Assembly (NCBI RefSeq): GCF_000350085.1
Contig: NZ_CAUM01000150.1
Location: 1 to 64,000 of the forward strand
Length of the DNA stretch: 64,000 nucleotides
Reading direction: 5' to 3'
Source: Mesorhizobium metallidurans STM 2683
Lineage (GTDB): Bacteria; Pseudomonadota; Alphaproteobacteria; Rhizobiales; Rhizobiaceae
The position numbers and the translations under genes were made by a program. Below are positions 37,085 through 62,533 of the stretch, piece by piece. The notes beneath the pieces were generated by a model that was not told the DNA's origin, searched no databases, and saw nothing but the letters and a program-made list of their open reading frames with translations. The number at the start of each line of letters is the position of its first letter. The stretch's first letter is position 1.

Positions 37085-37088
37085 GATT

Positions 37089-38339
37089 TCAGGCCGCCTT
37101 GCCGTCACCGAACTTCTCGATCGAGCGTGCCAACTCGACATGGCTCTTGGCGAAATCCTCAAGCGGAATGCCGTCGACCGCCGCCTGCCAGGCCTGCTGC
37201 ACGGCGCGCACGCCGGCCCCCGGCCCGTCCGGATGGCTGACAATGCCGCCGCCGCAGAGATAGAGCAGATCGACCGTCCGCCCGGTCCGCCGGTAGGTCT
37301 CCGGCGCCTGTCCGCCCCATTGGCCGGACCCCGCCACCGGCAGCGCGCAATCATCGGCCGAAAAGATCGGCGTCGTCACCGCCTTGAAGGATTCGACGAA
37401 GGACCAGTCCGGCTCCCAGTATTTCGAGGCGATGCCGTTGATCTGGAACTGGTCGACGCCGAGCAGCCGCCAGAATTGCTGCCAGACCTTGAAATCCATG
37501 CCAAGGCCGGGGTGGCGGGTCAGGATATCCCAACCATTGCGGTGGGCGTGCAGCACCAGGCTGGAGCGCTTCCTCAGGAACGCCATGCCGCCAAAACCGA
37601 TCGAATTGATGTTGACCACCGCGCAATTGCCGCCGGCCTTCGCCACCAGATCATGATTGCGCATCATCTCGTCGGGATCGGCATGCGAGATGCCGAAGGC
37701 ATACATCACCTTCCTGCCGGTCTTCTGTTCATGGTCGAGGATCAGCGGCATGATCGCCTTCACCCGCTCAGCCAGCGGTGAATAGGCCGGGCTCATCAGC
37801 TTCTCGTCGTCCTTGATGAAATCGACGCCGGCGGCGATCAACTCGCCCACCATCTCGGCCGTCTCGTGCGGCCTCAGCCCCAGTGCCGGCTTGACGATGG
37901 TGCCGATGATCGGACGGTCCGAGACACCGGTCAGCTTGCGGCTGCCGGCGACGCCGAACTGTGGGCCCGGATGCGCGCCGCGATATTCGTCCGGCAGCTT
38001 CATGTCGACGACGCGGATGCCGGACAGACCCCTGATCGAATAGGTGCCGCCAATGGCGATTGTCATCAGCGCTGACAGGTCGGTGCCGATGGCGTCGAAC
38101 GGGAAGGCGATGTCGACGTCGGCGCGCTTGAACGGCCCGTCGCCTGCCTCGGGAATGGATGGCTGCTCCGCCTCGGACAGGTGGCGGCTCGCCAGCACGC
38201 GCGCCGCCACGCGCGCCTTCAACTCCTCGGTCTCGCCCGGCAGCGCAACGAAAGTGCCGGTCGACTGGTCGCTGGCGATCTTGGCCGCCAATGCCTCGAT
38301 GCTGCCCGAGGTCTCGATGCGATAGGTGAGGGTGATCAT
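37089..38339 (-). CDS. oiaX: RuBisCO-like protein, probable 3-oxo-isoapionate-4-phosphate decarboxylase
   Basis: A 416-residue member of the RuBisCO large-chain family but not a true CO2-fixing form. It keeps the first active-site Lys in IIGTIVKPALGL near residue 150, the carbamylated-Lys/metal motif GVDFIKDDEKL near 175, the His/Arg in VLHAHRNGWDI near 265, and a Lys in the loop-6 position (GIASKYWEPD near 302). Residues needed to handle a phosphorylated 3-oxo acid are therefore present. In D-apiose catabolism such proteins (OiaX or OiaT) decarboxylate or split 3-oxo-isoapionate 4-phosphate. OiaX is preferred because EryH/EryI nearby can consume its product, L-erythrulose 1-phosphate. The start at 38339 follows the family; the longer frame overlaps the promoter. 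Confidence 0.78.
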   Translation of the reverse strand: MITLTYRIETSGSIEALAAKIASDQSTGTFVALPGETEELKARVAARVLASRHLSEAEQPSIPEAGDGPFKRADVDIAFPFDAIGTDLSALMTIAIGGTYSIRGLSGIRVVDMKLPDEYRGAHPGPQFGVAGSRKLTGVSDRPIIGTIVKPALGLRPHETAEMVGELIAAGVDFIKDDEKLMSPAYSPLAERVKAIMPLILDHEQKTGRKVMYAFGISHADPDEMMRNHDLVAKAGGNCAVVNINSIGFGGMAFLRKRSSLVLHAHRNGWDILTRHPGLGMDFKVWQQFWRLLGVDQFQINGIASKYWEPDWSFVESFKAVTTPIFSADDCALPVAGSGQWGGQAPETYRRTGRTVDLLYLCGGGIVSHPDGPGAGVRAVQQAWQAAVDGIPLEDFAKSHVELARSIEKFGDGKAA

Positions 38340-38394
38340 GATCCGCTGTCTCAGGTCGTGAGGAGTTCGAAAAAGGTTCCCTGATCTTCGAAAT

Positions 38395-38415
38395 CTGGTA
38401 TAATGAGTACATAAG
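38395..38415. promoter_or_regulatory. GGTATA operator site between oiaX and the GntR regulator
   Basis: CTGGTATAATGAGTACATAA, in the 165-base gap of the divergent oiaX and GntR genes, contains GGTATA, the hexamer bound by E. coli NanR. The same CTGGTAT core recurs at 46609, 47558 and (inverted) 52276. It could repress both divergent genes. Confidence 0.6.
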
Positions 38416-38504
38416 TATTGCAAGCGATATCCCGCCCGGCGGGCATTCCGGGAATCATGGCGGCAATGCTAAATAGATACCGGTCAAGGGAGTGATTCGC
38501 GACG

Positions 38505-39218
38505 ATGAACCGTTCGGAGCCGATCGTCCGGCGCAAGCTTTCCGACGAAGTCTTTGTCAGGCTGAAGCGCCTGATCACCAGCGGCGAATTGCAGCCGGGC
38601 GACGACATGCCGTCCGAGCGCGAGCTGATGGAGCGCTTCGAGGTCGGCAGGCCGGCGATCCGCGAGGCGATGCAGGCGCTGAGCAATATGGGGCTGGTCG
38701 CGATCTCGCACGGCGAGCGTGCCAAGGTGCTGCAATTGACCGCCAAGTCGATCATCAGGCAGGTCGACGGCGCGGCCAAGATCATCCTGTCGTCGTCGAA
38801 GGACACGCTGGAGCACCTCAAGAACGCGCGCATCTTCTTCGAGCGCGGCATGGTCAAGGAAGCCGCCGAAAAGGCCACCGCCGAGGATGTGCTGCGGCTC
38901 AAGGCAACGGTAGCCGAGCAGCGCGGCGCGCGCGGCGATTCCGAGGCCTTCATCGCCGCCGACATGAAGTTCCATACCCAGATCGCTGCCATATCCGGCA
39001 ACCCGATCTATGTCGCCGTCAGCGAAGCGATGCTGGGCTGGCTGAAGGAATACCACACTGAAATGCTGATCTGGACCGGCAAGGAAAAGTTCACGCTGAC
39101 CGAGCACGAAGAGATCATCGACCGCATCGAGAAGCGGGATGCCGATGGCGCCGAGAAGGCGATGATCAAGCATCTCGAACGCTCGCGTTCGCTCTATGTC
39201 ATGAATTCCGGCAGCTGA
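38505..39218 (+). CDS. GntR/FCD-family regulator, NanR-like, probable D-apiose repressor
   Basis: A 237-residue FadR/NanR-type regulator. The N-terminal GntR winged helix (PSERELMERFEVGRPAIREAM, residues 35-55) is followed by an FCD effector domain with the metal-coordinating pattern including MKFHTQIAAISGNP near 148 and the later EHEEIIDRIEKRD near 195. It is divergent from oiaX and convergent with apnL, in the middle of the apiose gene set. Four GGTATA-type sites in the surrounding promoter regions make it the probable regulator of the set. The effector is probably a pathway intermediate. Confidence 0.85.
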   Translation: MNRSEPIVRRKLSDEVFVRLKRLITSGELQPGDDMPSERELMERFEVGRPAIREAMQALSNMGLVAISHGERAKVLQLTAKSIIRQVDGAAKIILSSSKDTLEHLKNARIFFERGMVKEAAEKATAEDVLRLKATVAEQRGARGDSEAFIAADMKFHTQIAAISGNPIYVAVSEAMLGWLKEYHTEMLIWTGKEKFTLTEHEEIIDRIEKRDADGAEKAMIKHLERSRSLYVMNSGS

Positions 39219-46608: not shown

Positions 46609-46629
46609 CTGGTATGATGAGTCAATGAC
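46609..46629. promoter_or_regulatory. GGTAT operator-like site upstream of importer 1 operon
   Basis: CTGGTATGATGAGTCAATGA shares CTGGTATnAT and the following GAGT with the site at 38395. A further block, ATGTACCTGA (46641-46650), recurs in the site near 52276. It is in the 279-base gap between apnO and the binding-protein gene, about 210 bases before that start. Nothing else recognisable is in this gap. Confidence 0.5.
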
Positions 46630-46676
46630 AAATTCAGATGACATGTACCTGATGAGCCGTTCGAGGTCGGTGCGCC

Positions 46677-47613: not shown

Positions 47614-48633
47614 TTAAGGCGACCCATCCTTCGCCAGCGCCGCGGAACTGTTCTGGTCGCTCGCGGGCTCTGCCGAGGAGCGCGGCGCCAGCGCTTGCCT
47701 GCCCGCAAGCGCCAGCACGAAGATAACGACAATACCCTGGACGATATCCTGGGCGCCGGGCGGCAGGCCGACGATCTGCATGGTCGTGACGATCAGGATG
47801 AGAAGGATGCTGGCGAACAAGGTGCCGACAGCCGTAGCCGAGCCGCCGAAGATCAGCGTTCCGCCAAGCACCACCGCGGCGATCGACTGCAGGAGATAGG
47901 GCTGGCCCATTTCGAGGAAGGCGCCGCCAATATAGGCGCCGAGCAGCAAGCCGTTGAGCGACGCCAGCACCGACGAGATGATGAAGGCCGAAGCGATCAC
48001 CGGGCCGTTGCGGATGCCGGCGAGCCGGGCGGCAGCGCGGTTCTGGCCGACCGCCGACAGCAATTGCCCGAACACCGTGTAGCGTAGCACCAGGGAAGTC
48101 GCCGCCACGCCGAGAATGGCGATGATGGCCATGATCGGTACGCCTTCTATGCGACCCGAAGCCAGGTATTTCAGCGCCGGGCTGACGGCGAAGCCGGCTA
48201 TCGCCTTGTTCGACAGCAGCGTCGCGGTCGCCAGCACGTAGCCGGTCGCCAGCGTCGCGATGATGGCCGGTATGCGCAGCCCGACGACGAGCAGCGAATT
48301 GAGCACGCCGACGGCAAGGCCAAGCAGGATTGCGGCAAGGACGCCGACGACGAGGTTGGCATCCTGCCCCTTGATGGTGAGCAGCGCGACAAAGGCACTG
48401 AGTGTGATCACCGAAGCGACCGAGAGGTCGATATTGCCGCGCCCGGTCGTCACCACGAACATCTGGCCGATGCCGACGATCGTCAGGAAGGACGCCGACA
48501 GCACGATGCCCGACAGGCTGGACAGGCTGAAGCGGTTGGTGACGACGGACAGCAAGAGCCATAAAAGCAGCACGCCGATCGCCGACCAGATCCAGCGGTT
48601 CCTCTGAGCCCAGATGCTGAAGGGAGCATTCAT
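47614..48633 (-). CDS. Ribose-type ABC permease, importer 2
   Basis: A 339-residue RbsC-like permease; the first membrane span is WIWSAIGVLLLWLLLSVVTN near residue 13. Family marks are MFVVTTGRGNIDLSVASVIT near 58 and AVGQNRAAARLAGIRN near 190. The start at 48633 overlaps the stop of the ATPase-permease fusion in an ATGA. Since the upstream gene already contains a fused permease domain, this gene supplies the second half of a heterodimeric channel. apnO follows after 109 bases. Confidence 0.88.
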   Translation of the reverse strand: MNAPFSIWAQRNRWIWSAIGVLLLWLLLSVVTNRFSLSSLSGIVLSASFLTIVGIGQMFVVTTGRGNIDLSVASVITLSAFVALLTIKGQDANLVVGVLAAILLGLAVGVLNSLLVVGLRIPAIIATLATGYVLATATLLSNKAIAGFAVSPALKYLASGRIEGVPIMAIIAILGVAATSLVLRYTVFGQLLSAVGQNRAAARLAGIRNGPVIASAFIISSVLASLNGLLLGAYIGGAFLEMGQPYLLQSIAAVVLGGTLIFGGSATAVGTLFASILLILIVTTMQIVGLPPGAQDIVQGIVVIFVLALAGRQALAPRSSAEPASDQNSSAALAKDGSP

Positions 48634-51110
48634 GGTTCGCTCCTGCGGTCGGCGGTCAGGCTGCGCAGCGTCAGCAGCGCGATCAGGATCAGCCCTTGCG
48701 TCGCGGCGTTGAAATCGCTGCTCACATTCAGCGTGCCGAGCAGCGCCCCGATCAGCGACAGCGTCACGGCGCCAACGACGGCGCCGACCGGCGAGATGAT
48801 GCCGCCCAGCAGCGAACAGCCGCCCATCACCACGGCGGCGACGCTGAGCAAGGTGAACGAATTGCCTGAATTGATGTCGCTCGCCGTGTTGATTGCCGTC
48901 AGCGACAGGCCGGCCGCACCCGCAAACAGGCCGGCGATGAGATAGCGCGCCACCGCGTAGCGGGTCGGCGACCATCCGGACCGGATCATCGCCGCCGGAT
49001 TGTTGCCGAAACCGCGCAGGACGACGCCGAGCGGCAGCCGGTCGATGATCAGGACGACCAGCGCGACGGCTGCTATGAGGATGATGGAGGTGGGCACCAT
49101 GCCTACCGACCAGTTGAAGAGCGCCGACAGCCATTCCGGGCTGGCGCCGCCAGGCGTCGGCTGCAGCGCATAGCCCAGCCCCACCCAGATGAACGATGCG
49201 CCGAGCGTGACGACGATTGCCGGGATCTTGCGCGCCTGGATCAGCCCGCCGAGGCCGGCATAGGCAGCCAGCGTCGCAACCAGCGCAACGGCGCCAAGCC
49301 ATGGCTGGTCATAGAGCAGCGTGGCGCTGAGAACGCTGACGAGGCCGGCGAAGGCGCCGACGCCGAGATCGATCTCGCTGCCGCCGACGATGAACATCTG
49401 CGCCGCCGTCACCAGCACCAATGACAGCGCCGGCATCAGCAGCAGGTCGAGGCCGAATACCGAGGCGACGGCCGGATTGGCTGAGATCATGACCGCGAGC
49501 ACCACTGCAAGGCCGATGAACGGCGCCGCATTCACCAGCCTGCGGCCGAGCCTGGCCGCGGGTGTTTCCCGTTGCCCTGCGCCGGCAAGCCTGTCACCCG
49601 GCTGCGCGAAGGACGCCCCGACGATCGCGGCTTCCGTGATCGCCTCGCCCGTCAGTTCCCTGACGATCCGCCCACCGGCGAAGACCAGTACGCGGTCGCA
49701 GGCCACCAGTTCGGCATCCTCGGTCGTAAGCCAGATCAGTGCCCGTCCACCACGCGCGATCTCGTTGCAAAGCCGGTAAAAATCCTGCTTGGTGGCGATA
49801 TCGACGCCGCGCGTCGGATCGTCGAGCAGGACAATCGGCGCATCAGTGACCAGCGCCCTGGCGACCAGCGCCTTTTGCTGATTGCCGCCGCTCAACTCGG
49901 TGATGTCAGAATCGAAGCGCCTGTCGTCGAGCCGCAGCCGGCTGGCGGCGCTCGCAGCCGTAGCGCGGTTGACGCGGTCGGAAACCAGGCTCAGCGCCGG
50001 GCGGCGGGCAAGGCTGCCGATGCTGATGTTCGACAGTACGCTCCACAAGGGAAACACGCCTTCCTTCTGGCGGTCTCCTGCAATGAAACCGGCCTCCGCA
50101 TGCCTTGTGATCGCAGCATCCTGTTTGCGGCCGGGATTGAAGATCGCATGCAGCAACTCTTTCTGGCCGCTGCCCTCCAGCCCTGCCAGCCCGACGATCT
50201 CGCCACGCACGATGTCGATGTCGTGGCCAAGCTCGGCCGTCAGCGGGCCGGACAGCCGCACCAGCACGTCCTGGGTGGAGACGGCGGCGGTATGCTGGTG
50301 CACCGGATTGGCGTCGCCGCCCATCAGCTGCACCAGCCGGCCGATCGAGGCGTCCGCGGCATGGCCCTGCCACGCCGTGCCCCCGTTGCGCAACACCACG
50401 ATTTCGGTGGCGATGTCGATGATCTCTTGCAGCTTGTGGCTGATGAAGATGAAGGCAAGCCCTGCCTTCGCCCGCTCGCGGATAAAGGCCCTCAGCTGTC
50501 GCGAACGGTCGAGATCGAGCGCGGATGTCGGCTCGTCGAGGACGATCAGCTTGACACCGGGCGTTGCCGCCGCACGCGCGATCTCCACCATCTGCCGTTC
50601 GGCGATGGAGAGATGTGCGACCTCGGCGTCGGCATCGATGCCGTTTTCGGGAAACACCGCATCGAGCGCGGCGCGGGCGCGCGCCCGGTAAGGTGACCGC
50701 CAGCCTGGACGGCTTGCCGCCTCCGCCGGTATCTCCAGAAAGAAATTTTCGGCCACCGATAGATTGGCGCAGAGCGAAAGTTCCTGATGCACCATGCGGA
50801 TGCCGCGCCGCTGCGCCTCGCCAGTGCTGTAGTCGGCGAAGCTGATCTGTTCGCCGGCAAATGAAATCGAGCCCAGCGTCGGCCACATCGCGCCACACAG
50901 TATGCGCATCAGGGTTGACTTCCCCGCGCCATTTCCGCCAACCAGCCCGATCACGTCGCCGGCGCGAACGGAAAGGTCGATCCCCGCATTGGCGAGCGTC
51001 GGTCCGAAACTCTTCGTTATCCCAGTGAGCGAGACGACGCCTTGCCGGCCGGGTGCGACAGGCTCCGCCGACGCGGCGTTTTCCTGATCGGCGACGGCAA
51101 GGTGGGACAT
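48630..51110 (-). CDS. ABC ATPase fused to permease, importer 2
   Basis: An 826-residue chain. Residues 1-500 are an RbsA-type double ATPase: Walker A GGNGAGKSTLMR near 57, Walker B LIVLDEPTSALD near 190, second-half GLEGSGQKELLH near 310, signature ELSGGNQQKALVARAL and VLLDDPTRGVD near 440. The first-half signature is degenerate (LSIAERQMVEIARA). Residues from about 530 to the end are an RbsC-like permease (MFIVGGSEIDLGVGAFAGL near 585; VVLRGFGNNPAAMIRSGW near 705). A separate permease gene follows. A GGAGGAC ribosome site precedes the ATG. No break or frameshift is needed to read through both parts. Confidence 0.9.
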   Translation of the reverse strand: MSHLAVADQENAASAEPVAPGRQGVVSLTGITKSFGPTLANAGIDLSVRAGDVIGLVGGNGAGKSTLMRILCGAMWPTLGSISFAGEQISFADYSTGEAQRRGIRMVHQELSLCANLSVAENFFLEIPAEAASRPGWRSPYRARARAALDAVFPENGIDADAEVAHLSIAERQMVEIARAAATPGVKLIVLDEPTSALDLDRSRQLRAFIRERAKAGLAFIFISHKLQEIIDIATEIVVLRNGGTAWQGHAADASIGRLVQLMGGDANPVHQHTAAVSTQDVLVRLSGPLTAELGHDIDIVRGEIVGLAGLEGSGQKELLHAIFNPGRKQDAAITRHAEAGFIAGDRQKEGVFPLWSVLSNISIGSLARRPALSLVSDRVNRATAASAASRLRLDDRRFDSDITELSGGNQQKALVARALVTDAPIVLLDDPTRGVDIATKQDFYRLCNEIARGGRALIWLTTEDAELVACDRVLVFAGGRIVRELTGEAITEAAIVGASFAQPGDRLAGAGQRETPAARLGRRLVNAAPFIGLAVVLAVMISANPAVASVFGLDLLLMPALSLVLVTAAQMFIVGGSEIDLGVGAFAGLVSVLSATLLYDQPWLGAVALVATLAAYAGLGGLIQARKIPAIVVTLGASFIWVGLGYALQPTPGGASPEWLSALFNWSVGMVPTSIILIAAVALVVLIIDRLPLGVVLRGFGNNPAAMIRSGWSPTRYAVARYLIAGLFAGAAGLSLTAINTASDINSGNSFTLLSVAAVVMGGCSLLGGIISPVGAVVGAVTLSLIGALLGTLNVSSDFNAATQGLILIALLTLRSLTADRRSEP

Positions 51111-51188
51111 TTTCGTCCTCCGTTTCCTGGCATGGCGGAGATCGGGCGCGGCCAGCCGGCGGCGCCCGATCGAGGGACGATTGGCGCG

Positions 51189-52205
51189 CTACTTGCTCAG
51201 CAGGTTCTGCTTCACCCAGTCCAGCGAATAGCTGGGGCTGATGATCTGGCCGCCCGGCAGCTTGGCGTATTCCTTGAGATTGCCGGCGTCGACCGTCGCC
51301 ACCGGCATGATCATCAGCTTGGGCGCCTGGGCGCCCTTCAGCAGCGACAGGCCGAGCCAGAACGCGGCGCCGCCGATACCCGGCGTGGTGTTCATCGAGA
51401 CGGTCTGGTAGCCGTTCCTGGCATTTTCATCGGCCCACCATTTGACGAAATCGGTGCCGCCGCCGCCTTCGATGATCGGCATCTTGCCCTGGTATTCGCC
51501 GCCATACTGGACGAAGGCCTGCGCGATGCCGACATCGTCGCTGCCGCCCTGGCCAAGTACGGCATCGACATGCGGCAGCGAAGGCAACACATTGGCGATG
51601 GCCGCCTGAGCCACCGAAGCGGTCGCCTGGCCATAGACGGTGGCGACCACCTTGATATCGGGATATTTCGCCAGCACCGACTGCTGCGCGTTGAACATGT
51701 CGTTGTCGGGCGCCGAGCCTTTCACGCCACGTACCTGGATGACGTTGCCCTTGCCGCCGAGCATCTTGAAGACTGCCTCGGCCTGGGCCGCCTTGTAGCC
51801 CTTGAAATCGAAATTGAGCTGATAGTTGCAAGGGGCCGACGCAACGGAGTCGAAGGTGATGACGATGATGCCGGCCTTGCACGCCTTCTCGATGATGCCG
51901 TTGACCGCGGTCTCCGAGGCGGCATCGACGGCGAGCACGTCGACCTTCTTGAGGATCAGTTCGGCGATCTGGCTGTTTTGCTGAGCCACCGAACCGTCGC
52001 CGTTCATGACGATGTAATCGGCGATCTGTCCGGCAGCCTTCGCCTCCTTGGCCGAGGCTTCGAATGCTTCCACCATCTGATGCCGCCAAGTGTTGCCGTA
52101 ATAGGCATTGGCGAGCGCGATGACCGGCGCGTCGGGCGACGCCATTGCCGGCAACACGAAAACACTCGCGGCGCTGGCAAGCGCCGCCACAATTGCAAAC
52201 CTCAT
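51189..52205 (-). CDS. Ribose-type periplasmic sugar-binding protein, importer 2
   Basis: A 338-residue binding protein with a Sec signal (RFAIVAALASAASVFVLPAM, cleavage after AMA near residue 22). The mature part starts SPDAPVIALANAYYGNTWRH and has VLAVDAASETAVNGIIEKA near 92 and VLGQGGSDDVGIAQAF near 215. It heads importer 2 (binding protein, fusion, permease), about 80 bases before the fusion gene. The upstream gap (52206-52431) contains a double GGTAT site. The ligand is probably an apiose-pathway sugar or acid, since apnO lies at the end of the same stretch. Confidence 0.85.
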   Translation of the reverse strand: MRFAIVAALASAASVFVLPAMASPDAPVIALANAYYGNTWRHQMVEAFEASAKEAKAAGQIADYIVMNGDGSVAQQNSQIAELILKKVDVLAVDAASETAVNGIIEKACKAGIIVITFDSVASAPCNYQLNFDFKGYKAAQAEAVFKMLGGKGNVIQVRGVKGSAPDNDMFNAQQSVLAKYPDIKVVATVYGQATASVAQAAIANVLPSLPHVDAVLGQGGSDDVGIAQAFVQYGGEYQGKMPIIEGGGGTDFVKWWADENARNGYQTVSMNTTPGIGGAAFWLGLSLLKGAQAPKLMIMPVATVDAGNLKEYAKLPGGQIISPSYSLDWVKQNLLSK

Positions 52206-52431: not shown

Positions 52432-53526
52432 CTAACCCCGTTCGGGAAACATCGCCTTGAGGCCGTCGCGCGATGCCTTGGCGACGCCGCGTTCGGTGAT
52501 CAGGCCGGTGACCAGCCGCGCCGGGGTCACGTCGAAGGCGGGGTTTGCCGCCGGCGTCGCCTCCGGGGATACCCGGACCTGGGCAATTTCCCCGGATGCT
52601 GTCTTGCCCCAGACCAGCGAAACCTCGTCGGCCGAGCGCTGCTCGATCGGGATTTCGGCAAGTCCGTCATGCACCGTCCAGTCGATGGTCGGCGAGGGCA
52701 GCGCAACATAGAACGGTACGTCATTGTCGGCGGCGGCCAGCGCCTTGAGATAGGTGCCGATCTTATTGCAGACATCGCCATCGGCTGTCGTGCGGTCGGT
52801 GCCGACAATGACCATGTCGATCTCGCCGCGCTGCATCAGATGGCCGCCGGCATTGTCGACGATCAGCGTGTGCGGCACGCCGTGGCCCGCCATCTCCCAC
52901 GCGGTGAGTTGCGCGCCCTGGTTGCGCGGGCGCGTCTCGTCGACATAGACGTGGACCGGAATGCCGGCCTCGGTCGCCAGATAGATCGGCGCCGTCGCAG
53001 TGCCATAGTCGACGGTGGCCAGCCAGCCCGCATTGCAATGGGTCAGGATGTTGACCGGTTCACCCGTCTGCTTGCGCGCCGCGATCGCCTTGATGATTTC
53101 AAGACCGTTGGCGCCGATGGCGCGGTTGAGGCCGACATCCTCATCGGCGATTTCGCCGGCGCGCCGATAGGCGGCCTCGGCGCGCCGTTCGTGCGGCAGC
53201 GGCTTGAGGAAGCGCCGCATCTCATCCAGCGCCCAGCGCAGATTGATCGCTGTCGGGCGGGTTTCGTGCAACGTCTCCCAGACCACGTCGAGCGCGGCGT
53301 CCGAGGGGTCGTCGGCCACCTGCATGGCGACGCCGTAAGCCGCGGTGACGCCGATCAGCGGCGCGCCACGCACCCACATGTCGCGGATCGCCGTGGCGAT
53401 GCCGGCGACGGTGCCGATCTTTTCGATGCGGAAATCATGCGGCAGCCAGCGCTGGTCGATGATCTCGACCGAGCGCTTGTCGTCACTCAGCCAGATGGTG
53501 CGGTAGTGGCGGTCGCCGACGTTCAA
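52432..53526 (-). CDS. mtnA: S-methyl-5-thioribose-1-phosphate isomerase
   Basis: A 364-residue enzyme of the eIF2B/MtnA family. Diagnostic parts are [17 protein letters not shown] near residue 51, the catalytic Cys in [17 protein letters not shown] near 158, and the catalytic Asp in [20 protein letters not shown] near 240. It converts 5-methylthioribose 1-phosphate to 5-methylthioribulose 1-phosphate. Its start overlaps the mtnK stop (ATGA), so the kinase product passes directly on. No mtnB, mtnC, mtnD or mtnW is present in the window, so the later steps of the classic methionine salvage are not encoded here. Confidence 0.95.
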
Positions 53527-54809
53527 ATCCTGCTCTCCTGCTCGATCAGCGCGGCCAGATTGTTGACCTCGTCGATACTGTGGATCTGGCGCCGGTTGAC
53601 GGCGAGGTGGCGACCGAATTTCAGCGCCTTGGCCTCACATGCGGCGCGCAGGTCCTCGTCGGCAATGGTCTCGAAATCGGCGTTGTGCGCGAGGCCGAGG
53701 ATGCGCCGGTGGATCTCGATCCCGGCAAAGCCCAGCAAATCGTCCCAGATCTGATGCAGCACATGATCGAGCGCCTGTTCGGCGCCGAGCCTGTCGCCCT
53801 GATCCTCGAACAGGCTCTTCTGGTAAAGCATGCCGGTGCGTTCGGTTCGCCACAGATGCGAGAACTCGGCGCGGAAGACGGACCATGTCTCGACGGTCAC
53901 ATCGAGCAGATAGGCGCGCATGGCGTCGCGCTTTTCCTTCTGTTCGTGCCCCGCTTGCTCATGTCCGCGCTGCGAGAAGAAGGCCATCCAGAAATTGGCG
54001 AGCAGCATGCCGACATCGAAGGCCATCGGACCGTAGAAGGCGAATTCGGGATCGATCATCCTGGTTTCGGTGTCGGTGACCATGATCGAGCCGGAATGCA
54101 AATCGCCATGCAGCAGCGTTTCCGCGTTGGCGGCAAAGAGATGCTTCAGCCTTTGCGCCTCGACCTTGAGGTCGCGATCGGCGCGCAATTCGGCGACGAG
54201 GCCGTCAAGCTGCGGGCTCGTATGCCGGTTCATCCTGGCGTCGAAATAGGGATCCGAGAACACCAGATTCTCCGTGATGTCGCAGAGCTCGACATTGTCG
54301 GCGAACAGCGCCAGATCCGCCTTGCGATCCTTTGCCGCCATGCTGAGGTCGGAACCGCGAAACAAAGTGCGGGCCATGAACAGGCCGATATCCCTCGCGA
54401 TGTTCGGCAACTGCCGGCCTTCGATCAGCGCCCGCCGCAGGATGATGTGCGGCGACAGATACTCCATGATGATCAGCGCCTGGCCTTCGTCAAAGTGATG
54501 GATGGCCGGCACCGAGCCGGGCGCGCGCGCCTCTTGCCGTGTCAGCGCATGATATTCGAAGAAGGAGCGCTTCAAGGGCAGCGGCCAGCTGTCGCCGACC
54601 AGGCGGACATAGGGCAGGGCCTGCTTGACCACTGCGGCGCCCTTGTCGCCCTCGACAATGAACACCAGGTTCAGATTGCCGTCGCCGACTTCGCGGACTT
54701 TCCAGTTCGCCGTGTCCTTGCCGATCCGCGCGCACAGCGCATCGTTTGTGCCAAGGCGCATCGAAAGCGTCTCGACCGACAGTGCTTCGAACGGCAATTT
54801 CCCAGTCAT
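53523..54809 (-). CDS. mtnK: S-methyl-5-thioribose kinase
   Basis: A 428-residue kinase with the aminoglycoside-phosphotransferase fold. The N-lobe has [20 protein letters not shown] near residue 40, the catalytic loop is [13 protein letters not shown] near 228, and the metal-binding motif is [15 protein letters not shown] near 248. It phosphorylates 5-methylthioribose at C1. The ATG at 54809 is chosen because GGAGG lies 6 bases ahead; an ATG two codons earlier abuts that site. It is divergent from an ABC importer across a perfect palindrome, which suggests joint control of uptake and phosphorylation. Confidence 0.95.
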
Positions 54810-54863: not shown

Positions 54864-54926
54864 AAGCTAGGAAGCCATCTGGCAATTGTCAATCGTGTTG
54901 ACAATTGCCGGTGGAGCCCATAGCGT
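54864..54926. promoter_or_regulatory. Symmetric divergent promoters with 12-bp perfect palindrome
   Basis: GGCAATTGTCAA (54881-54892), 5 bases, then the exact inverse TTGACAATTGCC (54898-54909). Each arm contains an outward-facing consensus TTGACA -35 box. Exactly 17 bases out from each is a weak -10: TAGCGT (54921-54926) toward the ABC genes, and TAGCTT on the minus strand (54869-54864) toward mtnK. One bound repressor would cover both -35 boxes. Confidence 0.7.
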
Positions 54927-54945: not shown

Positions 54946-56472
54946 ATGGGCAATCATGCCGTGTTCCGCGTGGACGGCCTGAGGAAATCCTTCGGCCATA
55001 TCGAGGTGCTTGGCGGCGTCTCGCTCGAACTGCATGCCGGCGAAGTCACCGTGCTGATGGGCGCCAACGGCGCCGGCAAATCCACCCTGGTCAAGATCAT
55101 CAGCGGCGTCTATGAGCGCGGCGGCGGCACCATGGGCCTGGCAGGCCCAGATTTTGCCCACAAAGCCTTTGCGCCGAACACGCCGGCGGAAGCGATCCGT
55201 GCCGGCGTCGTCACCGTTCACCAGAACATCAATGACGGCGTCGTCGCCGATCTCGACGTCGCCACCAATCTGACGCTCGACCGGCTGAGCGGCAGCAGTG
55301 CGCCGTTCCTGTTCAATCCGGGCCGGGTGCGCCGCGAGGCGAAGGCCGTTGCCGACCGCATGGGGCTGGTCATCGACCTCAGGGCCCGCATCAGCGATCT
55401 TTCACTGGCCGACCGCCAGATGGTGGCGATTGCGCGCGCCATGGCGCATCAGCCGAAAGTGCTGATCCTCGACGAGCCGACCTCTTCCCTGTCCAGCACT
55501 GAGGCCGACCGGCTGTTCGCGCTGCTCGATCGGCTGCGCGAGCAAGGCGTGGCGATCCTCTATATCTCGCATCGCGTGTCGGACATCAGGCGGCTTGCCG
55601 ACCGCATCGTCTCGATGCGCGACGGCATCATCTCGGGCGTCTTCGACCAGAAGCCGCTCGACTATGAAGGCGCGGTCAACGCCATGCTCGGCCGCAAGAT
55701 CCATCTCGACCGCATCGTCGCGAGGAACTCGGCCAAGGCTGTCCTGACGGCCGACGGCCTGCGCATTGCGGAAGGCGCCCGGCCATTCTCGCTGACGCTC
55801 GGCGACGGCGAGGTCGTAGCCGTCACCGGCCTCGTCGGCGTCGGCAAGACCGCGCTCGCCGAGATGCTGTTTGGCGTGCGCAAGCCGCTCGCCGGCACCA
55901 TGACCATGAACGGCAGGCCCTATGCACCAGGATCGGCCGGTGAGGCGATCGCGGCCGGCGTGTTCCTCGTCGCCAAGGACCGCGCGACAAGCGGCATCGT
56001 CGGCGACTTCAACATCGAGCGGAATGTCAGCCTGCCGTTCCTCAAGCGGACCTCGCGCCTCGGTGTTCTCAGGCGCCGTATCGAACGCGCCACGGCCCGC
56101 CGGCAGATCCAGGAACTGGGCATCGTCTGCCGCTCGGAGAAGGACGAGATGTCGGCCCTTTCCGGCGGCAATCAGCAGAAGGTGATGGTGGCACGCTGGA
56201 TGTCGCAGGCCGCCAGACTGTTCATCCTGGACGAGCCGTTTCAGGGCGTCGACATCTCCGCCCGGCGCGACATCGCGGCCAAGCTCAGGGCAAGCGCCAG
56301 CGGCCGGGCGACACTGCTGTTCGTCACCGAACTCGACGAGGCGCTGGAGACGGCCGACCGCATCCTGGTGATGTCGGAGCAGACGATCGTCGGCGAACAT
56401 CGCAACGCCGACATCGATCTCGAGCGCCTGCTGGCCGAAGTGGCGGGTAGGCCGCTGCACAGCGCGGCATAG
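54946..56472 (+). CDS. Ribose-type ABC ATPase, probable 5-methylthioribose importer
   Basis: A 508-residue RbsA-like tandem ATPase. First half: Walker A GANGAGKSTLVK near residue 40, signature LSLADRQMVAIARA, Walker B VLILDEPTSSLS near 170. Second half: GLVGVGKTALAE near 293 and ALSGGNQQKVMVARWM, Walker B LFILDEPFQGVD near 425. The start at 54946 has GGGAGG 6 bases upstream; an upstream extension of the frame would begin inside the operator. The next gene, a permease, starts 85 bases after the stop. Divergence from mtnK suggests that the cargo is 5-methylthioribose. Confidence 0.88.
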   Translation: MGNHAVFRVDGLRKSFGHIEVLGGVSLELHAGEVTVLMGANGAGKSTLVKIISGVYERGGGTMGLAGPDFAHKAFAPNTPAEAIRAGVVTVHQNINDGVVADLDVATNLTLDRLSGSSAPFLFNPGRVRREAKAVADRMGLVIDLRARISDLSLADRQMVAIARAMAHQPKVLILDEPTSSLSSTEADRLFALLDRLREQGVAILYISHRVSDIRRLADRIVSMRDGIISGVFDQKPLDYEGAVNAMLGRKIHLDRIVARNSAKAVLTADGLRIAEGARPFSLTLGDGEVVAVTGLVGVGKTALAEMLFGVRKPLAGTMTMNGRPYAPGSAGEAIAAGVFLVAKDRATSGIVGDFNIERNVSLPFLKRTSRLGVLRRRIERATARRQIQELGIVCRSEKDEMSALSGGNQQKVMVARWMSQAARLFILDEPFQGVDISARRDIAAKLRASASGRATLLFVTELDEALETADRILVMSEQTIVGEHRNADIDLERLLAEVAGRPLHSAA

Positions 56473-56557: not shown

Positions 56558-57553
56558 ATGACGCTGCGCGACCACGCTATTCGCTACGGCTTCATCCTTC
56601 TGCTGTTCGGGCTGATCGCTTATTTCGCCACCGCCGCCGACGGCTTCGTCTCGCCGCAGAGCGCCGTCTTCATCTTCCAGTCGGTCGCCATCACCGGCGT
56701 GCTGGCGCTCGGCGTCACCGCCACCCTGGTCGTCGGCGGCTTCGATCTGTCGATCGGCTCCGTCGCCACCAGTGCCATGATGGCGGCCGCCTATGTGATG
56801 GTGGTGCTGGAGCAGAATGCCGTCGTCGCTGTCATCGCCTGTCTGCTGATCGGCGCCGTTGTCGGCCTCATCAATGGCTGGTTGATCGTCTATATGCGCG
56901 TGCCCGACCTGCTGGCGACGCTCGGCATGATGTTCCTGCTTGTCGGCTTGCAGCGCATACCAACCGAGGGCCGCTCGATCGCCACCGGCATGACCATGCC
57001 CGACGGTTCGGTCGCCAACGGCAAGTTCTCCGACGCCTTCCTGGCGCTCGGACGCCACCGCTTCGATTTCTTCATCCCGAACCTCATTCCGGTGTCGGTC
57101 GTCGTGCTGCTCGTGCTGGCGGCGCTGATCTGGTTCTTTCTCGAATACACCCGTTTCGGACGCATGATGTATGCGGTCGGCAGCAATGAGCGGGCCGCCG
57201 AACTCGCCGGCGCGCCTGTCAAGGCATACAAAATCTGGGCCTACATTATTTCAGGAGTTTTTGCCTCGATCGGCGGCATTTTGCTGGCTGCCCGGCTTGG
57301 ACGCGGCGACATCGCCTCGGGTAATAATCTCCTGCTCGACGCTGTCGCGGCGGCGCTGATCGGCTACGCGGTGCTCGGGGCCGCCAAGCCGAACGCCTTC
57401 GGCACGGCCGTCGGCGCGCTGTTCGTCGGCATCCTGCTGCAAGGCCTGACCATGATGAACGCGCCTTACTATACGCAGGATTTCGTCAAGGGCGTGGTGC
57501 TCGTGGTCGCCCTTGTCTTCACCTTCGCCCTTTCCGGTAGGGGCAGGAGATAG
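56558..57553 (+). CDS. Ribose-type ABC permease, probable 5-methylthioribose importer
   Basis: A 331-residue RbsC-like permease; the first span is YGFILLLFGLIAYFATAADG (residue 9 on). Family marks are ATLVVGGFDLSIGSVATSAM near residue 55 and AVGSNERAAELAGAPV near 207. A GGGAG ribosome site precedes the ATG. There is only one permease gene, so the channel is probably a homodimer. The 85-base gap before it holds no gene. Confidence 0.88.
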   Translation: MTLRDHAIRYGFILLLFGLIAYFATAADGFVSPQSAVFIFQSVAITGVLALGVTATLVVGGFDLSIGSVATSAMMAAAYVMVVLEQNAVVAVIACLLIGAVVGLINGWLIVYMRVPDLLATLGMMFLLVGLQRIPTEGRSIATGMTMPDGSVANGKFSDAFLALGRHRFDFFIPNLIPVSVVVLLVLAALIWFFLEYTRFGRMMYAVGSNERAAELAGAPVKAYKIWAYIISGVFASIGGILLAARLGRGDIASGNNLLLDAVAAALIGYAVLGAAKPNAFGTAVGALFVGILLQGLTMMNAPYYTQDFVKGVVLVVALVFTFALSGRGRR

Positions 57554-57600
57554 CTTTCGGCCGGATCAGATTTTTGAGTTCAACAAGTGGAGGAAACGAC

Positions 57601-58654
57601 GTGAAGATCACAAGAAGACTTTTGGCCAAGGCAGCCCTCGGGCTGGCCGGTGCAACAATGCTGATGCAGTTCCCGGCTTTTGCCGCTGACAAGCCGGCGC
57701 CCTTCGACAAGCCGGGCGTCAAGATCGCGCTGGTCCGCTATCTCTCGACCGGTGATTTTTTTCCAGGCCTATCTCTCCGGCGTCGAGGCGCAGTCGAAGG
57801 CCCTCGGCGTCGATCTGCGCGTGCTCGACAGCCGCCAGGACGCAGCACTTCAGGCCGACATGGTCGACCAGGCCATCGCGCTCGGCGTGCAGGGCATCAT
57901 CATCCAGCACGGGCTGACGGAATCGATGAAGGAGGCCGCCCAGCGCGCCGTCGACGCCGGCATCAAGGTCGTCGCCTTCGACGTCAATGTCGAGAACCCT
58001 GAGATTCCGCAGGTCGAGCAGTCCGACCGCGACCTTGCGCGGCTGGCGCTCGAACAGGCGGTCAAGGACAATGGCGAGAGCTGGAAAGCCGGCTATGTCT
58101 ATGTCGCCGGCATCGCGCCGCTCGACCGCCGCAACGAGACCTGGGTCGACGTCAAGAAGAAGTTTGCCGGCATCAACGAAGTCGCCATGTTCGGCACGCT
58201 CGACAATCCGATCGCCAATTCGGTCGCCAACCAGGCCCGCTCGGTGCTGTCGGCCCATCCCGACATCAAGGTGATGTTCGCCCCCTATGACGAATTCGCC
58301 AAGGGCGTGAAGATCGCCGTCGACGAGGCCGGTCTGTCCAAGGACATCAAGATTTATTCGGCCGACATCTCGACGTCCGACATCGCCGCGATGCGCGAGC
58401 CCGACAGCGCCTGGGCGGCGACCGCAGCCACCAACCCGGCCGTCGTCGGCCAGGTCTCGGTGCGCGTGCTGGCGCAGCTGCTTGCCGGCGAAGATCCCGG
58501 CCATAACGTCATCGTGCCGCCGACGCTGATCACCCAGAAAGACCTGGTCGACAAGGACATCAAGAACATGGAGGATCTCTCGGCCAAGCTGCCGCAATTC
58601 GCCCATGCCGATGTCGCCATGCCGGCCTGGATGCCGAACCCGAACGCGAAATAG
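57601..58654 (+). pseudogene. Ribose-type binding protein gene with a +1 frameshift in a T-run
   Basis: The GTG at 57601 has GGAGG 9 bases upstream and starts a Sec signal (KITRRLLAKAALGLAGATML, cleavage after AFA near residue 28). The frame reads normally to LVRYLSTGDFF and is then lost. The rest of the protein, from FFQAYLSGVEAQSKALG to the end MPNPNAK, continues in the next frame up to 58654. The break falls in a run of seven T at 57756-57762; six T would restore one open frame of about 350 codons. All downstream family motifs (IIIQHGLTESM, MFAPYDEFAKGVKIAV) are intact. A sequencing error, a recent mutation or transcriptional slippage are all possible. The protein would be the binding component of the methylthioribose importer. 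Confidence 0.85.
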
Positions 58655-58709: not shown

Positions 58710-58998
58710 TTACAGCCAGTGCTCCGGATCGCGCATCCCGTGGACGATCGCCACGACCAGGATGCTCTCCAACTGCGGTTCGTAGATGACGATGTAGCGG
58801 CCTTCGATGAGCACGCGGGCCGTCACGCTCAACTCTGGTCTGGCTGTGCCCCATCTTGGGATGTTCCGCCGCCAGCTCCAACTTGTCAAAAATGCGCATA
58901 AGCAGCTTGTCGGCCGCCTTTTCATTGTCGACTGCGATGGTGCGCCAAATATCCCGCAAATCCCGCGAGGCGCGTGGCGTGAGCCGATATCTAGCCAC
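58710..58998 (-). pseudogene. parE: ParE/RelE-family toxin with a frameshift
   Basis: The gene starts at 58998 with ARYRLTPRASRDLRDIW and IFDKLELAAEHPKMG, then changes frame. The proper C-terminal half (TARPELSVTARVLIEGRYIV, later VVAIVHGMRDPEHWL) is in another frame and ends at 58710. The break is in a run of four G on the minus strand (58849-58852); three G would join the two parts into a normal protein of about 95 residues. As written, the toxin would lose its C-terminal half and the frame would run on to 58354 inside the neighbouring gene. Start overlaps the antitoxin stop by 8 bases. Confidence 0.8.
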
Positions 58999-59266
58999 GG
59001 GCGCGGCGTTCTGCCTTCAAACCACGTATAAACTCGGCGGGTTCGACTTCCACCGGTTTGCCGCTGGCCATCCCATCGGCATAGGCCCGTTTCAAGTGTT
59101 CCAGCTCCAAGGCGCGCAATTCCTCGCGCTGTTCCCACAGGCGCAAGGCGTCCCGGACAATCTCGCTGTTGGAGGCATATCCCCCACCTTCGACAGCGCT
59201 TTGCAGGCGGGCCGCCTGCTGCGGGGTGAGGGATATTGTAAGGGTGCGCATCGGTTCGGTTTTCAT
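58991..59266 (-). CDS. parD: ParD-like antitoxin (ribbon-helix-helix)
   Basis: An antitoxin of about 91 residues. The N-terminal ribbon-helix-helix is MRTLTISLTPQQAARL followed by GGYASNSEIVRDALRLWEQR, a ParD/CC2985-type DNA-binding fold. The C-terminal part (FIRGLKAERRARG) is the toxin-binding tail. Starts at 59284, 59266 or 59251 are possible, and none has a strong ribosome site. It precedes parE with an 8-base overlap, the normal order for the family. It would autoregulate the pair from the AT-rich stretch just upstream (TATATATA near 59271-59280). Confidence 0.82.
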   Translation of the reverse strand: MKTEPMRTLTISLTPQQAARLQSAVEGGGYASNSEIVRDALRLWEQREELRALELEHLKRAYADGMASGKPVEVEPAEFIRGLKAERRARG

Positions 59267-59362
59267 GCCGACTATATATATCACGCCTCACAAGAACTAA
59301 CAATATTTGTTAGGTTTCTAGCATCCCTGCCTTGATCCTCGTGCTCATGGCAGGGGATTTGC

Positions 59363-61417
59363 CTAGCGCAGCGCCGCGGCGATGTTGCCGCCGTCCACCG
59401 TCGTCACATCGGCGGTGGTCCGCTCGGCCAGCGCGTGATGCAGGAAGGCCTGCGCCACATCCTGCGCCGTCACTTCCTGGCCGAGCAGATTGCCGGACAT
59501 GTACTCCTTCTCCGACACGCCGCGCGCACCCGAGCGGCTGGCGATCATGGCGTCGGTCAACAGTCCGGAACGGATGCGGTCGGCGTTGACGGCATTCGAG
59601 CGGATGCCGTGAGCGCCGTAGTCCAGCGCATATTGCCTGGACAGGAACAGTGTCGCCGCCTTCGGTATGCCGTAGGCGCCGAACTTCGGACCTGGATTGA
59701 CTGCCTGCTTGGAGGTGTTGAACAGAAGCACGCCGCCGGTGCCCTGTTCGAGCATGATGCGCACGGCGTTCTGTGCCGCCGATTGGTGGGCGAAGAAATT
59801 GAGCTCGAAGCTCTTGCGCAAAGTGGCGTCGTCGAGCTCGCCGATCCGGCCTTCCCAGGCAGCGCCCGCGTTGGAAACCAGGATGTCGACACCGCCGAAG
59901 ACGGCGACGGCCTTGTCGAACGCAGCGCGCATCTCCCCCGGATCGGTGATGTCGGTGCCGATGCCGATCGAGTTGTTGCCCGCCTTCCTTGCGGCCTCGG
60001 CGGCTTTCGTTGCGTCGAGGTCGACAATGACGGCGTGCGCCCCATTGTCGGCGAACAGCTTTGCGGTGGCGGCGCCGATCGCGCCGGCGCCGCCGGTGAC
60101 CAGCACCACCTGGCCGGTCAGCGGTTTCGGCTTGTTGGAGGCGAGCTTGGCCTGTTCCAGCGACCAGTATTCGAGCGGGAACAGGTCGGCTTTCGACAGT
60201 GGCCGGAAGTCGCCGACCGCCTCTGCTCCGCGCACCGCCTCGATCCACATCTCGCCGACATCGGAGGCGATCCTGGCATCCTTCAGCGTGCGGCCATGGC
60301 CGAACATGCCGAGGCCCGGCACCAGCGTCAGGCGCGGCATCGGGTCGAGCATCGTGCGCTTGATGTCGTCGAGCCCGTCATTGCTTTCGAAATAGGCGCG
60401 ATAATCCTTGGCGAATGCCTCGACGTGGCTGCGGATGACGGATTTGTAGTCGCCGATTTTCGCCAAGTCGGGCGCCGGCAGCGCCATCGGTCCGGTCTTG
60501 ATGCGGATCGACAGGTCGGGCGTCGACACGCCGCGCCCGGCATAGTCGGCAATCCTGGCCGAGTTGATGAAATCGACAATCGCGTCCGAGGTGCGGAAAT
60601 CGCTGATCATGCGGTCGAAGCGGCCTTCGCCGCGCGCCACGGCCACAGCGCCGCGCAGCATCGGCGCAAGATCCGCCGCCGTCGCCAGTCTCGCTGGCAG
60701 GACGGCTTTTTCGGTGCGCGGCTTGCCATGCCTGCCGATGAAATCCTCGGCGACGTTCACATAGTGGATCATCCGGTCATAGGCCTGCTTGGCATCGTCG
60801 CCGAACGTGAAGATGCCATGCTTGTCGAGGATCAGGCCTTCGACGGTCGGGTCGGCTTCGAAGACATCGGCAGCTGCTTTCGCCAGATCGAAGCCCGGCA
60901 TGATGTAGGGCACATAACCCATCTTGCTGCCGAAAACCTTCTCGCTCAGCGCCTCGCTGTCGTCCTGGTCGACGATGGCCAGAATGGCGGTCGAATGCGT
61001 GTGGTCGACGAATTTGTGCGGCAGGAAGGCATGCAGCAGCGTTTCGACCGAAGGGTTGGGCGAGGATGGATCGATGAGGTTCGCCCGCTGCAGGGCGACC
61101 ATGTCCTCGTCTGAGAGTTTTTTGAGCGACCGCGCCTTCAGCAGCGCGCCGAGCTTGACCGCCGGCAGCCCCTGAGGCTCGATGACGCCCATGTCCCAGC
61201 CGCTGCCCTTGACGCAGAGCACGTCCCATTCGTCGCCGACGAGGTCGGTCGCTTTCGTCTTGCAAGAGGTGTTGCCGCCGCCATGCAGGACAAGCCGGGG
61301 TTCGCCTCCCAGAAGCCGTGTCGTGTAGACGCGCAGCGCCAGATCCCGGCTGACACCCCTTTCCGCATAGTCGGCAACCAGCTTTTCCGCATCGCCGTCA
61401 TTCCACAGGTTTTTCAT
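59363..61417 (-). CDS. Bifunctional class II aldolase / short-chain dehydrogenase
   Basis: A 684-residue fusion. The N-terminal 400 residues are a class II (fuculose/rhamnulose-phosphate-type) aldolase with VLHGGGNTSCK near residue 40 and the zinc pair in FVDHTHSTAIL near 128. The C-terminal 250 residues are an SDR dehydrogenase with VLVTGGAGAIGAATAKLFAD near 430, SNAG near 510 and the catalytic Y/K in FGAYGIPKAATLF near 575. It is of the RhaD type known in rhizobial rhamnose use (rhamnulose 1-phosphate to DHAP plus lactaldehyde, which is then oxidised). No rhaI, rhaU or rhamnose importer is present, so another ketose 1-phosphate may be the substrate. The start at 61417 fits; the frame is open further upstream without family sequence. 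Confidence 0.88.
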   Translation of the reverse strand: MKNLWNDGDAEKLVADYAERGVSRDLALRVYTTRLLGGEPRLVLHGGGNTSCKTKATDLVGDEWDVLCVKGSGWDMGVIEPQGLPAVKLGALLKARSLKKLSDEDMVALQRANLIDPSSPNPSVETLLHAFLPHKFVDHTHSTAILAIVDQDDSEALSEKVFGSKMGYVPYIMPGFDLAKAAADVFEADPTVEGLILDKHGIFTFGDDAKQAYDRMIHYVNVAEDFIGRHGKPRTEKAVLPARLATAADLAPMLRGAVAVARGEGRFDRMISDFRTSDAIVDFINSARIADYAGRGVSTPDLSIRIKTGPMALPAPDLAKIGDYKSVIRSHVEAFAKDYRAYFESNDGLDDIKRTMLDPMPRLTLVPGLGMFGHGRTLKDARIASDVGEMWIEAVRGAEAVGDFRPLSKADLFPLEYWSLEQAKLASNKPKPLTGQVVLVTGGAGAIGAATAKLFADNGAHAVIVDLDATKAAEAARKAGNNSIGIGTDITDPGEMRAAFDKAVAVFGGVDILVSNAGAAWEGRIGELDDATLRKSFELNFFAHQSAAQNAVRIMLEQGTGGVLLFNTSKQAVNPGPKFGAYGIPKAATLFLSRQYALDYGAHGIRSNAVNADRIRSGLLTDAMIASRSGARGVSEKEYMSGNLLGQEVTAQDVAQAFLHHALAERTTADVTTVDGGNIAAALR

Positions 61418-61509: not shown

Positions 61510-62475
61510 CTATGAGGCCTTTTCTGCCGCAGGCCCGGCATGGTCCAGCAGCCGCCGCGCCATTCGCGCGCCGACCACGAGATGTGTGCACAGCCCGCCG
61601 CTGATCGCCGCGATCAGCGGTTCGAACTTGCTGTCCTCCTGCACGACCATGAGCCGTTTCTCGATCTTGCGCAGCGATGACAGCTCCGCCGAAATGACCC
61701 GGCGATTGTAGCTGCAGTCGAGCGCCTTGCCTTCGGCGTCGATGATCTGCCCGGCGATGACGCCGGCCGCCCCCGCCTTTCGCAATGCCCCCATCTCCTC
61801 GGCCGTCAGCGCGCCGCATTTGACGACATGGCTGTCGGCGTCGACGGTGCCGGCCGAATAGAGCGCCAGGTCGCAGTCGCCAATGCCCGACAATTGCTCG
61901 CGAATCACCGGCTCGGCGCGCAGGCCACGCGCCAGTTCTTCCGTCGTCAGCACCAGCGGCGCATAGAAATTGAGCCCCTTGGCGTTGAGCCGGCGCGCGA
62001 TCTCCATGGTGCATTGGTCGGGCCGGTACGAATAGGGGGCTCCGAGATTGCCGCAGAGCTGCACCACCGTGACGTCCTGCAGGTCGGCATAGGACATGAT
62101 GTCGGCGATCATATAGACGGTCCGTCCCCAGGCGACGCCGATGCGGTCGCCCTTCTTGACCAGTTCGAGAAAGACGTTGGCCGCCAGCACCGCGATGTCG
62201 GTCGAGGGATCGGCGGCATGGCCGTTCTCCGGCGCGATCCAGACCGCATCGAGCTTCAGCGCGTCTTCCAGCTTGCGTGCCAGCACGTCGTCGGTGAAGA
62301 GCTGTGTCGAAGTCGAGATGTTGACGATGCCGGTCTCGCGCGCCTTGCGCAGATACATGGCGACCGAGGCACGGGAAATCTTGAGCTGGCTGGCCACCTG
62401 GTCCTGGCGCAGGCCATGGGCATAGTAGAGCCAGGCGGCCTTGTGGATAAGCTGTTCTGCCGGTCGGATCGCCAT
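61510..62475 (-). CDS. SorC-family sugar-responsive transcriptional regulator
   Basis: A 321-residue regulator. The N-terminal helix-turn-helix is GLRQDQVASQLKISRASVAM (residues 21-40). The SorC sensor domain has IGVAWGRTVYMIADIM near residue 118 and CDLALYSAGTVDADS near 205. It precedes the aldolase-dehydrogenase gene by 92 bases on the same strand and probably controls it. SorC regulators respond to phosphorylated sugars, consistent with a ketose-phosphate aldolase target. Confidence 0.85.
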   Translation of the reverse strand: MAIRPAEQLIHKAAWLYYAHGLRQDQVASQLKISRASVAMYLRKARETGIVNISTSTQLFTDDVLARKLEDALKLDAVWIAPENGHAADPSTDIAVLAANVFLELVKKGDRIGVAWGRTVYMIADIMSYADLQDVTVVQLCGNLGAPYSYRPDQCTMEIARRLNAKGLNFYAPLVLTTEELARGLRAEPVIREQLSGIGDCDLALYSAGTVDADSHVVKCGALTAEEMGALRKAGAAGVIAGQIIDAEGKALDCSYNRRVISAELSSLRKIEKRLMVVQEDSKFEPLIAAISGGLCTHLVVGARMARRLLDHAGPAAEKAS

Positions 62476-62533
62476 GCCATCTCCCTATCTGACATTATTC
62501 ACGGCTCTCGACAAAAGTCAAACCGGGGCAGGA

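Follow-up and report, generated by a model that had tools for sequence, protein, structure and literature searches.

Two divergent operons, one for a sugar importer and one beginning with mtnK, are separated by a perfect inverted repeat in the 64-kb stretch of Mesorhizobium metallidurans STM 2683 DNA analysed here (the window). This arrangement raises two questions: How would a regulator read such a repeat, and which regulator of this genome would it be?

Direct reading gives perfect 12-bp arms, GGCAATTGTCAA-N5-TTGACAATTGCC, with a TTGACA facing outward in each arm and 17-bp spacers leading to TAGCTT on the mtnK side and TAGCGT on the importer side, exactly as the original prediction had stated. 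Its further description of the whole regulatory region as nearly a mirror image was overstated, as the symmetry stops at the palindrome, with 7, 7, 5 and 2 matches per 10 bp counted outward from the centre. Both -35 boxes are perfect. TAGCTT and TAGCGT agree with TATAAT at 3 of 6 positions each and were taken as -10 boxes because they are conserved in 68 of 68 distinct Mesorhizobium-type sequences. A strict promoter consensus scan returned 0 promoters at the palindrome region, and a terminator consensus scan found none. The elements of the region are as follows:

54881-54909, no strand: predicted operator, perfect 12-bp inverted repeat with N5 between importer and mtnK (sequence, conservation)
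54880-54891, no strand: proposed left half-operator TGGCAATTGTCA for one SorC dimer (sequence; paired arrangement as at the sorC promoter)
54899-54910, no strand: proposed right half-operator TGACAATTGCCG for a second SorC dimer (sequence)
54898-54903, plus: -35 box TTGACA of the importer promoter, also an inner half-site (sequence)
54921-54926, plus: putative -10 box TAGCGT of the importer promoter (invariance, 17-bp spacing)
54887-54892, minus: -35 box TTGACA of the mtnK promoter, also an inner half-site (sequence)
54864-54869, minus: putative -10 box TAGCTT of the mtnK promoter (invariance, 17-bp spacing)

Genes of the cluster

The genes on both sides of the palindrome, together with the SorC-type regulator, are:

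52432-53526, minus: mtnA, S-methyl-5-thioribose-1-phosphate isomerase (TIGR00512, 424 bits, cut-off 279)
53523-54809, minus: mtnK, S-methyl-5-thioribose kinase (TIGR01767, 506.6 bits, cut-off 275)
54946-56472, plus: ATPase of a ribose/arabinose-type sugar ABC importer (AraG/RbsA-like, below equivalog cut-offs)
56558-57553, plus: importer permease (RbsC-like, below cut-off)
57574-58654, plus: importer substrate-binding protein with an apparent frame change (N-terminal part in frame 57574, rest in frame 57680)
59363-61417, minus: bifunctional aldolase/short-chain dehydrogenase, downstream of sorC (PRK08324.1-6, 1140 bits, cut-off 639)
61510-62475, minus: SorC-family regulator, proposed repressor (PF04198; best solved structure 8r7y)

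The mtnK and mtnA assignments are firm as judged from these scores, and the importer is RbsA/AraG-like in its predicted components, without a specific assignment. The most likely start of mtnK is 54809, after GGGAGG, rather than 54851; it was chosen because of the ribosome-binding site and of the place where the matches of relatives begin. Among the 40 rows listed (of 106 records), 38 have a match starting at residue 18 or 21 of the longer frame, one at residue 3 and one at residue 11. In the substrate-binding protein the signal-peptide part lies in the first frame and the remainder in the second, which most relatives match from residue 27; this split appears to be either a sequencing error or a real frame change. 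The aldolase/dehydrogenase gene is probably cotranscribed with sorC. Judged from its enzymes, the cluster looks like a system for the uptake and cleavage of methylthioribose or 5-deoxyribose by a route similar to the DHAP shunt.

The same gene set is present in five annotated relatives (Pararhizobium, Mariluticola, Shinella, Rhizobium rosettiformans and Ensifer), where two transketolase-like proteins and one that resembles RuBisCO come next. In the window a second sugar importer (47614-52205) follows mtnA on the same strand and replaces these transketolase-like and RuBisCO-like genes. A small toxin-antitoxin-like pair (58710-59303, ParE/ParD-like by reading) lies between the importer and the aldolase gene; this place may be an insertion spot, because Pararhizobium has a VapB-family antitoxin in the equivalent position. 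In Sinorhizobium medicae (positions 5185-7083 of locus L167) sorC adjoins the importer, with no aldolase/dehydrogenase match in between. The original prediction had remarked that no regulator gene is adjacent to the divergent promoter, and this is correct for the window but not for the 10 clusters from other families (L143-L152), in all of which the regulator directly adjoins mtnA.

Conservation of the palindrome and the site at the sorC promoter

Allowing up to 3 mismatches, the palindrome has one match in the window, none in 100 window shuffles, and a single place across the 6.23-Mb genome. A genome scan for the core TGTCAA-N5-TTGACA with at most 1 mismatch gave 4 places, against 5 for the reversed control pattern, and only the mtnK/importer palindrome carries the core with 0 mismatches.

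Conservation was followed in a set of 85 loci. The SorC protein served to collect 80 of them, the best of 252, and four plasmid loci and the window were added. Nine were left out, as the mtnK/importer start pair was unreadable and the contig or flank ended first. The core is present exactly once in each of the 76 readable intergenic regions, so the palindrome is conserved in related genomes; its loss there had been named beforehand as an outcome that would speak against the prediction. Over 10 bp, the two arms mirror each other exactly in 60 of the 76 regions (56 with CAATTGTCAA and 4 with CAAATGTCAA) and are unequal in the other 16 (CAATTGTCAA against CAAATGTCAA); over the full 12 bp, the repeat is perfect in 46. 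Within the distinct Mesorhizobium-type sequences the spacers and flanks average 77-88%, against the invariant -10 boxes. The four plasmid loci, three from Rhizobiaceae and one from Mariluticola, carry CAAATGTCAA-N5-TTGACATTTG, and their arm letters differ from those of the window on both sides.

A search for the same palindrome upstream of sorC homologues had been proposed as a check, and it yielded a related, weaker element in the window:

62490-62520, minus: second, weaker predicted operator TGACTTTTGTCG-AGAGCCG-TGAATAATGTCA over the sorC promoter (matrix scan, conserved island)

This element sits between the -35 box TTGACT (62521-62516) and the -10 box TAATGT (62497-62492), and it deviates from the half-operator consensus at two positions. 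The upstream regions of Mesorhizobium sorC genes are variable except for the ribosome-binding region and the island TTTGACTTTTGTCG-AGAGCCG-TGAMTAATGTCA, which shows small variations. The matrix was built from 16 dissimilar sites upstream of mtnK alone, all of the class with a 7-bp gap, and the gap itself was ignored. The best matrix score of each of the 85 sorC upstream regions was compared with the scores of 200 random sequences of equal first-order composition: for 81 regions no more than 2 of the 200 reached it, and for 63 none did.

The sorC site ranks third in the 64 kb, after the palindrome, which is a member of the training family, and after 38054-38084, which scores slightly above it. 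The latter lies within a frame (37089-38423) that by eye looks RuBisCO-like; its neighbours look like a kinase (35750-37354) and like a GntR-type gene (38505-39218), and the group (35750-39218) possibly belongs to an isoapionate-type pathway. The fourth-best place, 46620-46650, is weak (3.5 bits) and lies upstream of another sugar-binding protein gene. As single matrix matches, 38054-38084 and 46620-46650 are not claimed as operators.

Outside Mesorhizobium the picture varies between clades. Five sorC promoters of a class with an 8-bp gap (L143, L144, L147, L148 and L162) carry TGACAAAAGTCA-N8-TGTCAAATGTTA or similar, and those of L145 and L146 carry weaker versions. None of the eight genomes of the clade in which sorC follows mtnA (e.g. 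L149-L152) showed a site in front of sorC. In families f11 and f27 there are loose matches only, about 147 bp upstream and in 6 of 12 genomes, and family f22 gave one loose match among 4. The proposed check thus succeeded at the sorC promoter of the window and of many relatives but failed in some clades, and autoregulation would hold for part of the family only, because the sites are absent or loose elsewhere.

Two proposed half-operators for one probable repressor

The product of the gene at 61510-62475 has the PF04198 sugar-binding domain at its C-terminal end (7.9e-50, 169.9 bits, cut-off 27). Residues 4-311 match 8r7y (Deoxyribonucleoside regulator) at 6.4e-30, and residues 6-54 match 7bhy, a 57-residue Deoxyribonucleoside regulator chain, at 5.5e-5, which corresponds to a DeoR-subfamily helix-turn-helix; none of the Pfam HTH models matched the protein at its cut-off.

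Both the palindrome and the sorC promoter can be read as two 12-bp sites similar to TGnC-N4-GnCA, 7 bp apart, although the final letter of the right half-operator at the palindrome deviates from this pattern. The half-operators start 19 bp apart (20 in the 8-bp class), and their inner halves are strict and their outer halves loose. We give a probability of about 0.78 to the reading in which the linked SorC repressor has its main operator at the palindrome and, as a tetramer on the two half-operators, would repress both operons. In the scheme that follows, binding, repression, tetramer stoichiometry, effector and transcription starts are all inferred. The tetramer, as two dimers, would bind the half-operators 54880-54891 and 54899-54910, whose inner half-sites GTCAA...TTGAC would double as the -35 boxes of the two divergent promoters. 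One bound tetramer would then exclude RNA polymerase from both, and importer and mtnK-mtnA would be off together; such repression by occlusion would be the simplest outcome because the inner halves coincide with both -35 boxes. Through the weaker operator over the sorC promoter, the repressor would regulate its own gene and the aldolase gene downstream of it. The repressor would come off once its sugar-binding domain is occupied by a phosphorylated sugar of the pathway (probably a derivative of 5-methylthioribose or 5-deoxyribose), and the steps from uptake through phosphorylation and isomerisation to aldol cleavage would then be turned on together.

The original prediction had proposed a dimeric repressor on the palindrome. 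A divergent promoter with a conserved operator between importer and kinase is supported by the comparisons above, but a tetramer on two half-operators is the likelier reader. If a SorC dimer read one long palindrome, then the outer letters would merely tune affinity, and in agreement with this the inner letters are the most conserved and the outermost are degenerate (GTCA and TGAC being fixed by the search core). We nevertheless regard a single dimer as unlikely. A complete TGAC-N4-GTCA half-operator is present in several sorC promoters and in the mtnK sites of L143, L144, L147 and L162, and the SorC-family complexes solved on full operators are, in the accessible parts of PMC11229326, tetramers on two half-operators. 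The tetramer is therefore preferred, because the sorC promoter has the same pair of sites and the solved complexes of the family are tetrameric.

The closest solved relative is DeoR of Bacillus subtilis (8r7y, 7bhy) on the dra-nupC-pdp operator, where one palindrome and one degenerate half overlap the promoter (PMC11229326, accessible parts, also for what follows). The two half-operators, the single tetramer and the promoter overlap of that system resemble what is proposed here, as does its half-site, TTGAA against TTGAC. In contrast, the DeoR operator is asymmetric and serves one promoter instead of being symmetric between two divergent ones, and its half-operator centres are about 23 bp apart, as counted from the printed sequence, against 19-20 here. 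CggR and LsrR of the same family (PMC11229326, PDB 4go1) are also tetramers on DNA, and the CggR operator has two halves, but CggR has another type of DNA-binding domain and both proteins serve other pathways.

The geometry of the palindrome has a further possible consequence. The -35 boxes are only 5 bp apart (6 bp in the 8-bp class), and, from the size of polymerase footprints, two polymerases could hardly occupy boxes 5-6 bp apart. Since this spacing fits one polymerase or one repressor tetramer, a symmetric SorC operator with -35 boxes as its inner half-sites might make the two promoters mutually exclusive as well as co-repressed, with uptake and the first catabolic steps firing alternately in a fixed ratio; we put this forward only tentatively. 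In the survey of the order given below, whose search core was GTCA and TGAC, GTCAA-N5/6-TTGAC is kept in 44 of 44 sites from ten coded families, and both full TTGACA boxes are present in 29 of the 44. This suggests selection on the overlap of -35 box and half-site itself.

Co-occurrence with sorC and the relation to E. coli MtnR

Our survey of Hyphomicrobiales covered 397 genomes, 103 of them with mtnK above the family cut-off, and 109 mtnK copies (all copies listed above the cut-off, minus the second copy of genome G119). Among the SorC matches listed, 46 of these copies, that of the window included, have a SorC homologue within 12 kb. The pattern GTCA-N7/8-TGAC lies at most 500 bp upstream of mtnK in 44 of the 46 linked copies, whereas 0 of the 63 remaining copies, from 58 genomes, carry it, again among the SorC matches listed; "unlinked" copies may include some with weaker SorC relatives nearby, because the comparison used the stronger SorC matches, mostly those on the same contig as mtnK and not far from it. 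The two linked copies without the site (G349 and G388) have SorC proteins on long branches, which may be other SorC proteins. Over gaps of 0-20 the linked set has its maxima at 7 (21 copies) and 8 (23 copies), and the counts at 14 (7 copies) and 15 (14 copies) are due to the outer half-sites of these operators. The matches at gap 19 (10 linked copies) were rejected as half-site pairs: they come from a conserved stretch, presumably coding sequence of the importer, that lies over 300 bp upstream of the operator. With the scrambled control ACTG..CAGT no gap had more than 1 copy, and with the inverted TGAC..GTCA none had more than 4. The counts of 76 regions and 109 copies are not independent because of shared genomes: Mariluticola is in both sets (L004 and apparently G056/L156), and Mesorhizobium genomes may be too.

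Spacer length was then compared with the phylogeny of the regulator. On the tree of the 46 SorC proteins, 21 rows carry the 7-bp spacer, 23 the 8-bp spacer and 2 no site, and the spacer switches only twice among the 44 labelled rows (support is poor for 14 of the 43 inner branches). Families f40 and f44 contain both spacers, each of which goes with its SorC clade and not with the family. Such a pattern would follow if SorC senses how far apart the half-operators are; mtnK would likely show it as well, because the linked genomes are related and the cluster probably travels as a block.

The original prediction had named the SorC gene at 61510 as one candidate regulator, and this candidate gains support from the 44 of 46 against 0 of 63, from the site at the sorC promoter and from the spacer following the SorC tree. 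A different, unlinked regulator on the palindrome, with SorC limited to its own promoter or to another target, would agree with the absence of an adjacent regulator gene in the window and with an almost complete confounding of SorC with the divergent importer, which flanks 43 of the 44 sites. A regulator tied to the importer keeps some room because of this and because just 3 importer-divergent copies lack a linked SorC; all three are without the site (importer detection used an upstream view of 700 bp only for 60 of the 109 copies). In G145 the copy is SorC-linked, no divergent importer was detected in the 700 bp upstream, and the site is present. We consider such a regulator improbable, as the site is absent from all 63 mtnK copies with no linked SorC among the matches listed, recurs at the sorC promoter and has a spacer that tracks the SorC tree.

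It is far less credible that the palindrome consists merely of two back-to-back promoters with consensus -35 boxes and has no regulator: TTGACA is indeed the sigma-70 -35 consensus and the outer arm letters differ between sides in 16 of the 76 regions, but conservation reaches outward beyond the hexamers, with identical 10-bp arms in the other 60, and the site is absent where SorC is not linked (among the SorC matches listed). Least credible of all is binding by a regulator of the FNR/FixK type, whose boxes have a TTGAC-N4-GTCAA-like consensus; the left half of several sorC promoters, TTGACTTTTGTCA, resembles a FixK box, but this was rejected as the main reading since the mtnK/importer arms misfit the box, the paired layout would stay unexplained and the site tracks SorC.

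One of the closest known systems is that of Escherichia coli. MtnR (YjhU), reported in 2025, represses the mtnK-mtnA-ald2 operon of the DHAP shunt in the absence of pathway substrate, and this operon is induced by 5-deoxyribose; in the accessible parts of that report (PMC12632272) the operator was left open, with CAAAT-N9-ATTTG as a proposal. The regulator beside mtnK in an E. coli plasmid record was taken as MtnR because of its position. It is likewise a SorC-family protein (PF04198) next to mtnK and an aldolase gene, with 30% identity to the SorC of the window over 305 columns. For this reason the system described here is, on sequence grounds, an alphaproteobacterial counterpart of E. coli MtnR, with its own predicted operator and an unusually compact double promoter.

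The two systems differ in several respects. The E. coli aldolase is, per annotation, a separate gene of the L-fuculose-phosphate type; its annotation, from an incomplete gene table, shows no divergent importer of the RbsA type in the stretch read; and the proposed CAAAT-N9-ATTTG (PMC12632272, accessible parts) is unlike the mtnK/importer palindrome. Inspection by eye of the stretches upstream of E. coli mtnK and of its regulator gave no GTCA-N7/8-TGAC. Searches of the open-licence literature, judged by title and abstract opening, gave no description of this regulator and operator, and the sole "SorC" match in the accessible part of PMC4239095 is the name of an author. The analysis yields a predicted operator, regulator and regulon by which rhizobia and their relatives would control how they take up and break down 5-deoxy sugars (methylthioribose, 5-deoxyribose); where the E. 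coli work, as far as its accessible parts go (PMC12632272), left the recognition sequence of MtnR open, an alphaproteobacterial operator is predicted here. Upstream of E. coli mtnK (positions 4900-5000 of locus L170) a palindrome TTGTCA-CA-TGACAA lies beside CAAAT-N9-ATTTG and may be an alternative site for MtnR.
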